A program made the translations under genes and the position numbers. A DNA stretch of 64,000 nucleotides, from assembly GCA_037481875.1 (NCBI GenBank), contig JBBFKY010000007.1, forward strand, positions 1-64,000, written 5' to 3'. This document shows, one piece after another, positions 31,233-40,004 of this stretch. A model generated the notes under the pieces. The model was not told the DNA's origin, made no database searches, and worked only from the letters and a program-made list of their open reading frames with translations. The first letter of the stretch is position 1; every line of letters begins with the position of its first letter. The DNA comes from Desulfosoma sp. GTDB lineage: Bacteria > Desulfobacterota > Syntrophobacteria > Syntrophobacterales > DSM-9756.

Positions 31233-32003
31233 ATGTCACCCATGAGTGGAAGCGCACATTCGGAGCATGCGGAAAGCAAGGTCCGTTACGGCATGGTCAT
31301 CGATTTGGACAAGTGCACGGGTTGTGGCGCCTGTTCGGTGGCATGCCAGCAGGAAAACAATGTTTCTTTTCGGCCCGATGAAAGCGACAAGCTGCGCACC
31401 TTGTCCTGGATGACCTTGTATCGGTTGGAAAACGGGGCGGATTACCCCGACTATCGCGCGGCCATGCTGCCTCGGCCCTGTATGCACTGTGACTCACCCC
31501 ACCATTCTCCGTGCACCTTTGTGTGCCCGGTGAACGCCACCATTCGTGATGAACACACGGGCATTGTGGACCATGTGGCCGTGCGCTGTATCGGCTGTCG
31601 TTATTGCATGGTGGCCTGCCCTTACCATGCCCGTTCTTTTAATTGGTGGGATCCTACATGGCCCAAATCCATGGAAGCCATGCTCACACCTGAAGTGAGC
31701 CCGCGCATGCGCGGTGTGGTGGAAAAGTGTACCTTCTGCCACCACCGCCTCAATCTGGCTCGAGACCGAGCTCGACTCAACGGAGAAGACCCCGACACGG
31801 TCCTCTACACACCGGCATGTGTGGAGGCGTGCCCCGCTCGTGCCATCACCTTTGGCAATCTCAAGGATCCCAACAGTGAGGTGGCCAAACTGGCTAAGGA
31901 TTCTCGAGCCTTTCGTATTTTGGAAAAACTCCACACGGAACCCAAGGTTTATTACCTGAGTTCCGCGCAGTGGATACGGCGTCAGTCGGACAATGGTCTG
32001 TGA
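31233..32003 (+). CDS. qrcC: Qrc complex iron-sulfur subunit
   Basis: The product has 256 residues. Four cysteine clusters can be read: CTGCGACSVAC, CMHCDSPHHSPCTFVC, CIGCRYCMVACPYHARSFN, and CTFC paired with CVEACPARAITFG. This is the pattern of periplasmic ferredoxin-like subunits of the complex iron-sulfur molybdoenzyme family. It should wire QrcA/B to the quinone-binding QrcD. It has no signal of its own, so it may be co-exported with QrcB. RIGHT order and spacing (62 bases after qrcB, 38 before qrcD) support one operon. Confidence 0.94.
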   Translation: MSPMSGSAHSEHAESKVRYGMVIDLDKCTGCGACSVACQQENNVSFRPDESDKLRTLSWMTLYRLENGADYPDYRAAMLPRPCMHCDSPHHSPCTFVCPVNATIRDEHTGIVDHVAVRCIGCRYCMVACPYHARSFNWWDPTWPKSMEAMLTPEVSPRMRGVVEKCTFCHHRLNLARDRARLNGEDPDTVLYTPACVEACPARAITFGNLKDPNSEVAKLAKDSRAFRILEKLHTEPKVYYLSSAQWIRRQSDNGL

Positions 32004-32041
32004 TGTCCTGAGTCCCCTTAGACTTTTTTCAGGAGTCCGTC

Positions 32042-33283
32042 ATGGATAAGGCATTGATTCCGGAAGGTGTGAAGCGTTGCCCTCTACCGGTCTTTGGCCT
32101 GTGGATGCTCTTTTTGTCGGCCGTCATCGCCTGGGGCATCTACGCCGGTTACACCGTGCTCTTCAAGGGTTTAAACGTCACCGGTCTCAACAACTACTTC
32201 GGGTTTGGGCTCTACATTACGGTCGACCTCGGCATCATCGCCCTAGGTGCGGGAGCCTTCTTTTCGGGTTTTATGTATTACGGGCTGTCTCGATTCTTTC
32301 CTCGGCTCAAGGAGCTCCATAAGATCATCAATTTGGCGGTCATCGTAGGCTTTTGTTGTTACACAGGCGCCTTGTTGGTGCTTTTGTTGGAAATCGGGCA
32401 GCCGTTGCGAGGTTGGTTCGGGTATTGGCATGCCAATGTGCATTCCATGCTTACAGAAGTCATCTTCTGCATTTCTTGTTACGCCATTGTGCTTGTCATC
32501 GAATTTGTGCCCATCATTTTGGAAAACCGCAAGCTGGACGCTATCAAGCCCCTTCACATTTTCGGACATAACCTGCATGAAATCATGGCCGTCTTCGCCA
32601 TGACGGGCACCTTTTTGAGCTTTTTCCATCAAGGATCTCTAGGTGGTGTGCCCGGTGTGATGTTCGGTCGGCCTTTTGCGTACCGCACCGGCTTTTTTAT
32701 CTGGCCTTGGACCTTCTTTCTGTTCACTCTCTCGGCCATGGCGTGCGGACCTGCTTTTACGGCCATCATTTGCCGTATCATAGAAAAGGTGAGCCGTAAG
32801 ACACTGGTAGATCGCAGTGTCTATGAACTTATCGCCAAGATCACAGGGAGTCTGCTTTTGATCTACCTCATCTTCAAGAGCCTGGACACGCTGTATTGGG
32901 CTCTGGATACGGCCCCTGGTTTCGGCTTGAAGCTCAGCGACTTCTACCGAGCTCCCTATGGCATGTGGCTCCTTTTTGCGGAACTTGGGGTGTGTGGTGT
33001 CCTACCCATCATCCTATTGCTCACGCCTCAGACTCGAAATTCCAACGGGCTGCTCTTTCTAGGCTTTTTCCTCAACTGTGCAGGCATTGTCATCAACCGT
33101 TTTGCCATGACCGTGGAAGCCTTAGCCATTCCCGTGATGCCTTTTGATCAGTGGGCCGTCTATATTCCCACGTGGGCCGAATGGGCTCCGTGCATCGCCA
33201 TGCTGGCCTACGGGGCTGTGATCGTGTCCTTGTCGTATCGGTACCTGCCCATTTTCCCAAGAGAAAAGGAGTTAAACCCCTAG
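32042..33283 (+). CDS. qrcD: Qrc complex NrfD-like membrane subunit
   Basis: The product has 413 residues with about ten hydrophobic helices, as in the NrfD/PsrC family. Helix 1 is LWMLFLSAVIAWGIYAGYTVLF. The stretch KLDAIKPLHIFGHNLHEIMAVFAMTGTFLSFFHQGSLGG holds conserved histidines, and a late helix contains LLFLGFFLNCAGIVINRFAMTVEA. QrcD carries the menaquinone site and anchors the complex in the membrane. It is the last gene before a strong terminator at 33386. Confidence 0.94.
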   Translation: MDKALIPEGVKRCPLPVFGLWMLFLSAVIAWGIYAGYTVLFKGLNVTGLNNYFGFGLYITVDLGIIALGAGAFFSGFMYYGLSRFFPRLKELHKIINLAVIVGFCCYTGALLVLLLEIGQPLRGWFGYWHANVHSMLTEVIFCISCYAIVLVIEFVPIILENRKLDAIKPLHIFGHNLHEIMAVFAMTGTFLSFFHQGSLGGVPGVMFGRPFAYRTGFFIWPWTFFLFTLSAMACGPAFTAIICRIIEKVSRKTLVDRSVYELIAKITGSLLLIYLIFKSLDTLYWALDTAPGFGLKLSDFYRAPYGMWLLFAELGVCGVLPIILLLTPQTRNSNGLLFLGFFLNCAGIVINRFAMTVEALAIPVMPFDQWAVYIPTWAEWAPCIAMLAYGAVIVSLSYRYLPIFPREKELNP

Positions 33284-38893: not shown

Positions 38894-39003
38894 TCGATTT
38901 CAGTTTTGTGGGGTTGGGGTGCGGTACGCCCCTAAGTTGTAAAAACATTCGTTGCAATGGCTGTTGGGAATTCTCGGGAAGTCTTTAGGTTTAAACGGGT
39001 TTA

Positions 39004-39281
39004 GCCCTTGGTCGTGCTAGGTGGGGAGCTAGCGGTTCCCTGTACCCGAAATCCGCTTAGCGGGGCTGAATCCCCTTTCGAGGGATCGGTCGGCGTGATC
39101 CGAACGGAACTGTTTCACCGGTCGGACACCTCGCAACAGACGGATGTGAACCCCGTCAGGTCCGGAAGGAAGCAGCGGTAAGCATTGCGGTCTGTGTCGG
39201 GGTCTATTCTGACTAGGTGCGGCAGGGAAGCCGGGTCGGCGCCGAGCGACTCGACAAAGGGTGCACGGCCAAGGGTCTTTT
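39004..39281 (+). ncRNA. ffs: Signal recognition particle RNA, large type with Alu domain
   Basis: The universal helix 8 core is exact: GTCAGGTCCGGAAGGAAGC at about 39155-39173, flanked by CCCC/GCGG. Unlike the ~114-base E. coli RNA, this one has a 5' Alu-like domain: GTGCTAGGTGGGGAGCTAGC, CCCTGTACCC and GGGGCTGAATCCCC. The ends close by 13 pairs, 39005-39017 (CCCTTGGTCGTGC) with 39263-39275 (GCACGGCCAAGGG). A T-rich tail (39276-39282) ends transcription. The length is about 275 bases, like the Bacillus scRNA. It binds Ffh and targets ribosomes to the membrane. Confidence 0.95.
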
Positions 39282-39310
39282 TGTCTTTCAGCTTCGGCGC
39301 CCTGGCGGCC

Positions 39311-39763
39311 TCATTCATCCAGCGTGTGGGTCACAATGTTATAGTGTTCGGCAAATACAGGTCCTCGCCCTTTAAACATACTCACATGGGTGAGGACCCA
39401 TTCGGCTACTTCAAGCCGCTTGGATTCCGAAAGCGCATTAAAACAGGCAAACATGGCCTCTTCCGTCGGGGCTTGTTCCATCTGTCGCCAAATATCCGAT
39501 GGACTCATGCGTTTCTCCTCATCCCTTTCCTGTTGTTCTCGTATCTTGACTACGGCCTCTTCGGCTTGGCGCATCATGTTTTCCAAGTTTTCTCTCAGGC
39601 CCTGCACCACCTGGTGTAGCTCTTCCAACGAGCCGCAACGCAGAAGGCTCTTCGAGGATGTTTCCTGCCCGATCCAGTTGATGACAAAGGTAGAGCGTGA
39701 CGGCTCAGTTTTGTTAGGGACCACTTCCAAGTCCAGGCGCATCCCTGACATCGAAGGCTTCAT
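39311..39763 (-). CDS. Hypothetical protein
   Basis: I do not recognise this 150-residue product. The first 40 residues look like beta strands (RLDLEVVPNKTEPSRSTFVINWIG). The middle is a coiled coil rich in Glu, Gln and Arg (LENMMRQAEEAVVKIREQQERDEEKR). The end is helical (APTEEAMFACFNALSESKRLEVAEWVLTHV). The ATG at 39763 has GGAAAGG six bases before it; an ATG two codons upstream is too close to that site. It ends 30 bases from the SRP RNA terminator, facing it. No membrane or signal segment. Confidence 0.7.
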   Translation of the reverse strand: MKPSMSGMRLDLEVVPNKTEPSRSTFVINWIGQETSSKSLLRCGSLEELHQVVQGLRENLENMMRQAEEAVVKIREQQERDEEKRMSPSDIWRQMEQAPTEEAMFACFNALSESKRLEVAEWVLTHVSMFKGRGPVFAEHYNIVTHTLDE

Positions 39764-40004
39764 GCCCATCCTTTCCTCATTGTAAAAAAGTTTGCTGTCC
39801 TGATAGCATCAAGCTAACGCCTTCCTGAGCTTATGACAAGCGGCTACGCGCACTTTGATGAAAACGCCCTTTTACGACAAAAAAATCTTGATCCCACAGG
39901 CAACTTTACTGAAGCTTTTGAAGCCCGTGCGTCTATCATCGAACAGGGAATTTTTCGGACTTGTCTTTTTGTTCGAAAGGAAATGGTGAACAAAGAGGTC
40001 AAAC

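Follow-up and report, generated by a model that had tools for sequence, protein, structure and literature searches.

The window analysed here is a stretch of 64,000 nucleotides from a Desulfosoma sp. genome (contig JBBFKY010000007.1), and its plus strand carries, at 39004-39281, a complete and ordinary large bacterial SRP RNA with an Alu domain, a member of a known family. Upstream of this RNA, at 31233-33283, the window encodes the subunits QrcC and QrcD of the menaquinone reductase found in sulfate reducers. Just downstream there is a 152-aa ORF on the minus strand (39311-39769), whose DNA is conserved in relatives of the same genus and family and for which no Pfam or NCBIfam match was obtained.

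Identity, anatomy and extent of the RNA

In an Rfam covariance search, the Bacteria_large_SRP model (RF01854) matches 39012-39268 (+) with 144.6 bits (E 6.6e-23) from model position 1 to 256, that is, over the full length of the model and above its gathering cut-off of 60 bits. A search of the whole 3.4 Mb genome returned this locus as the sole RF01854 match. The small SRP model (RF00169) covers only the S domain (39120-39217) and reaches 66.2 bits, 78 fewer than the large one. Since the small model does not score better, the original prediction, which had announced a large SRP RNA with an Alu domain in a Desulfobacterota genome and had proposed this very comparison of models, is borne out; hairpins H3 and H4 and the pairing of their loops are all present. 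The Bacteria_small_SRP class is defined by an S domain without the Alu domain, and the window RNA has one. The predicted fold has an energy of -136.3 kcal/mol, against a shuffle mean of -112.2 (z -4.7), a value equalled by 0 of 200 shuffles. The genome contains a single Ffh gene (G000:C4:92690-93967, 610 bits).

The elements of the RNA are ordered as terminal helix, short H2, H3, H4, long helix 5 and helix 8 (Table 1). The ends had been described as paired by 13 base pairs, and these are found between 39005-39017 and 39263-39275; one further G-U brings the terminal helix to 14 contiguous pairs. The linker between H3 and H4 reads UGUAC, differing from the strict UGUNR motif. TGT stands at this position in 98 of 165 relatives, and the UGUNR motif is variable in archaea too (PMC2905702). 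The tertiary contact between the H3 and H4 loops has been described for archaeal and mammalian SRP RNA (PMC2905702, PMC4605306).

Table 1. Coordinates of the large SRP RNA gene and its elements in the window
Feature	Position	Strand	Basis
Large SRP RNA gene (body and start of the T-rich 3' tract)	39004..39281	+	RF01854 144.6 bits, model 1-256; conserved block in family
Terminal helix, 5' strand (helix 1 and extension), GCCCTTGGTCGTGC	39004..39017	+	Pairs with 39263-39276; covaries in 167 relatives
Alu hairpin H3 (GGGGA...TTCCC), loop GCTAGCGG	39023..39040	+	RF01854 alignment
H3 loop bases AGCGG, tertiary partner of the H4 loop	39031..39035	+	Five pairs possible in 166/166 scored relatives
H3-H4 linker TGTA, U-turn position	39041..39044	+	RF01854 alignment; relatives compared
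Alu hairpin H4 (CCCG...CGGG), loop with ATCCGCTT	39045..39064	+	RF01854 alignment
H4 loop bases CCGCT, partner of 39031-39035	39053..39057	+	Loop-loop pairing in relatives
Helix 8 core GTCAGGTCCGGAAGGAAGCAGC, GGAA tetraloop, predicted Ffh-binding site	39155..39176	+	Exact match to SRP core search string
Terminal helix, 3' strand, GCACGGCCAAGGGT	39263..39276	+	Pairs with 39004-39017; covariation
T-rich tract right after the terminal helix, TCTTTTTGTCT	39276..39286	+	T enrichment in relatives

The coordinates given originally (39004-39281) are good to a few bases, as judged from the conserved block in relatives. This block starts at 39000-39006 when relatives of the genus and family are compared, with scant alignable DNA immediately upstream, and its end falls at 39280-39283 in five of the seven relatives examined (L011, L029, L208, L209 and L211). 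In the same-genus relatives L008 and L212 conservation extends past the RNA into the downstream gene. Among 167 relatives, the mean T fraction is 0.46 in the 6-10 bases past the terminal helix and 0.30 in the 5' flank. A sigma-70 promoter scan of the window revealed no convincing promoter; by eye, a TTGAA-type -35 and a weak -10 are common to the family relatives, the window copy being unconvincing.

Both the terminal helix and the loop-loop pairing covary among relatives. In 167 unique relatives, the strands of the terminal helix form a mean of 11.3 contiguous pairs with their own partners and 7.3 when matched with strands from other species. For instance, position 4 of this helix is C-G in 102 relatives, T-A in 62 and T-G in 3. 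The five pairs between the H3 and H4 loops can be formed in all 166 scored relatives, being fully Watson-Crick in 162 and including one G-U in the other 4. The Alu motif is present in 188 loci. Those that came from the pattern scan were picked by a sequence that included the H4 loop, and for this reason the invariance of this loop among them is partly an artefact of selection; the fully compensated variants GGCGG/CCGCC (L015) and GACGG/CCGTC (L033) come from outside that scan.

These data bear on the idea that the large transcript is processed to a 4.5S-like product of about 100 bases, the Alu part being a discarded precursor end. The match of RF00169 to the S domain (66 bits) fits such a product, and the long terminal helix could serve as an RNase III substrate. 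However, the terminal helix and the loop-loop pairing are maintained by compensatory change across the phylum, and a discarded end would have no need of a tertiary contact, so that processing of this kind is very improbable.

Distribution of the large form

The window RNA is the normal SRP RNA of its order, taken to be Syntrophobacterales, and no oddity of one genome. The full Alu form is found in 34 of the 39 genomes of the order, each with at least 129 bits, and, as a correction to the original prediction, it is not unusual within its group. Of the other five genomes, G073 scores 67 bits and G307 85 bits, and three have no match. The 85-bit SRP RNA of G307, a MAG, has ends that resemble a possibly eroded Alu domain (L320). 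Another genome of the order, the single-contig G323, has two equal-score Ffh matches about 45 kb apart (C1:3700519-3701796 and C1:3745271-3746548).

At the phylum level, 258 of the 297 genomes sampled have some RF01854 match, and 46 of them, belonging to 20 of 95 families, exceed 115 bits. Direct reading confirmed the Alu motif in all 46, and the other matches that were read lack the Alu domain or have it in reduced form. Weak matches that nominally span model positions 1-256 (about 75-102 bits) were considered as intermediates and rejected, since most of them turned out on reading to be S-domain-only RNAs, many with a tRNA-Ser-like sequence immediately upstream. A pattern scan of named genomes, in whose taxonomy the NCBI Myxococcota label on 'Deltaproteobacteria bacterium' names was not used, returned mostly Desulfobacterales and other Thermodesulfobacteriota, with scattered matches elsewhere; the Alu pattern also occurs in Thermotogota, WOR-3, LCP-89, Zixibacteria and one Clostridia record.

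The large bacterial SRP RNA has been reviewed as restricted to some Firmicutes and a few Thermotogae (PMC11431127), and Gram-negatives have been described as typically devoid of it (PMC4359368). The large form is much commoner in Desulfobacterota than these two reports suggest. Literature searches joining SRP RNA and Alu with delta-proteobacteria, Proteobacteria or Desulfo found nothing relevant; Rosenblad et al. (2009) stands outside this comparison, and first notice is not claimed.

Several individual records deserve mention. In L176, from a record titled candidate division WOR-3, the Alu domain is full, and about 16 additional bases separate its H3 from its H4. Records of one MAG (WB1_Bin_16) contain two distinct large SRP RNA loci, L102 and L158, whose 3' flanks closely resemble each other; either there is a second copy or the bin is mixed. 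L122, a large SRP RNA, comes from a scaffold with the label Olavius algarvensis Gamma 3 endosymbiont, which possibly belongs to a sulfate-reducing symbiont and was mis-binned. In G106, a 95% complete genome of family f2 and sister of G073, Ffh is present and neither the large nor the small model detected an SRP RNA, which may mean that the locus fell into an assembly gap or that the RNA has diverged strongly. Small-type SRP RNAs of the phylum are often located, by eye, just downstream of a tRNA-Ser-like sequence (L048, L050-L053, L056, L058, L061, L062, L066, L069 and L071).

Loss and reduction of the Alu domain

On an Ffh tree of 78 genomes, in which losses were counted among rows not of the small type and with the full form taken as ancestral, 10 losses of the Alu domain are needed (8-11 over 1000 bootstrap trees). 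They are nested inside Alu-bearing clades, and one of them falls within a genus, at the same locus. Change counts alone cannot separate loss from gain, a choice between ancestry followed by loss and separate gains that has also been left open in the literature (PMC2905702). Two considerations favour loss: the S domain of the Alu-bearing relatives is still present in the reduced RNAs, and many rebuilds of a canonical Alu domain are implausible. The 'retention' of the Alu domain spoken of in the original prediction is supported by the many nested losses. Such repeated loss in relatives also means that the domain is not essential in the phylum.

The within-genus case is formed by two species, one with a full Alu domain (G325, L228) and one with a reduced form called mini-Alu (G036, L059), whose flank segments are 75-83% identical on both sides. 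G036 lacks about 35 bases that in G325 hold H3 and most of H4. Mini-Alu RNAs were also found in G327 (L231) and in genus g198 of another family (L067, L234-L237). In all of them helix 1 and the junction are kept, and in predicted folds a single hairpin replaces H3 and H4. The sequence of this hairpin varies by species and the fold persists, which in the few sequences compared is suggestive of selection on it.

This orthologous pair with alignable flanks is relevant to the origin of the large form, which could have been acquired by horizontal transfer from Firmicutes and not retained. The Alu pattern does occur in the other groups listed above, one Clostridia record among them. However, the full forms track the Ffh tree at the family level in 20 families, and the reduced forms share the S domain, as well as the locus in the within-genus pair, with the full ones; transfer is thus hardly credible.

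Direct repeats of at least 4 bases are common to the H3 5' strand and the H4 3' strand in 179 of the 188 loci, because both strands pair with C-runs. Mostly they read GCGGGG and lie about 41 bases apart; the window copy is only GGGG, 39 bases apart. A one-step deletion between these repeats would yield a mini-Alu, although no deletion junction proves this route. A broader scenario is that Desulfobacterota lose the Alu domain repeatedly and in part by one route, in which repeat deletion would give a mini-Alu (helix 1 and one hairpin in a three-way junction, selected for a role other than arrest) and the whole end domain would be lost later. The chances for and against this scenario appear evenly balanced. 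If true, the large form would be ancestral in the phylum, and natural comparisons of SRP with and without Alu hairpins would be available within genera.

Because the Alu domain is bound in Bacillus by the HU protein HBsu, the HU neighbourhood was checked against the presence of the domain. In many families of Desulfobacterota, the SRP RNA is immediately preceded by an HU/IHF-like gene (for instance L005, 1214-1489, and also L006, L013, L015, L016, L018, L020-L022, L028 and L030). In the window, no HU gene is present upstream of the SRP RNA. The possibility that this gene tracks the Alu domain was rejected, since the Alu-less L072, L073, L076, L077, L079 and L081 have the same HU-like C-terminus upstream.

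Proposed function and comparison with known systems

The best reading, with a probability of roughly 0.85, is that this RNA is the only SRP RNA of the genome, of the large (6S, Bacillus-like) type, combining targeting by the S domain with elongation slowing by the Alu domain. Distal helix 5 and helix 8 make up the S domain, which would bind the single Ffh and recognise signal sequences, as well as first transmembrane segments, on translating ribosomes. The pairing of the H3 and H4 loops would compact the Alu domain, composed of the terminal helix, H2, H3 and H4. Extending along helix 5, this domain would reach the elongation-factor site and slow elongation up to the encounter of the ribosome with FtsY and the translocon. 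Ribosome docking and elongation slowing are proposed by analogy with Bacillus and eukaryotes. The B. subtilis Alu domain has been placed at the ribosomal GTPase centre (PMC8881573), and ribosome profiling is consistent with Alu-dependent pausing, as inferred in PMC4359368.

It is also conceivable, if unlikely, that the Alu domain is intact and no longer slows elongation, its retention serving the stability or maturation of the RNA or some other partner. The losses in the phylum (at least 8, one of them within a genus) show it to be dispensable, and the mini-Alu, which keeps helix 1 and loses H3 and H4, suggests that a constraint of its own, for example stability, may act on the end helix. However, H3, H4 and the loop contact are near-invariant wherever present, a degree of conservation that stability alone would not call for, and elongation slowing remains the preferred function.

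Greater interest attaches to the repeated erosion seen in related families than to the window RNA, which is one more representative of a known family. Full, partly eroded and Alu-less SRP RNAs coexist in a Gram-negative phylum, even in one genus, so that close relatives can be compared directly for the role of the Alu domain in membrane-protein targeting and for its replacement.

The window RNA resembles the reference RNAs of RF01854 (B. subtilis scRNA or 6S SRP RNA) in having helices 1-5 and 8, no helix 6, H3-H4 loop pairing, a GGAA helix 8 core and about 270 bases; the difference lies in the host, a sulfate reducer of a Gram-negative phylum. With E. coli 4.5S RNA (RF00169) it has helix 8 and distal helix 5 in common, but 4.5S RNA has no Alu domain. 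The mini-Alu forms of G036, G327 and g198 are comparable to the eroded SRP RNAs of archaea (Desulfurococcales, Nitrosopumilus; PMC2905702) and to dikaryan fungal SRP RNAs devoid of H3 and H4 (PMC4605306). However, those eroded RNAs belong to other domains of life, and the Desulfobacterota mini-Alu retains helix 1 and a single hairpin. Unlike its mini-Alu relatives, the window RNA itself is not eroded.
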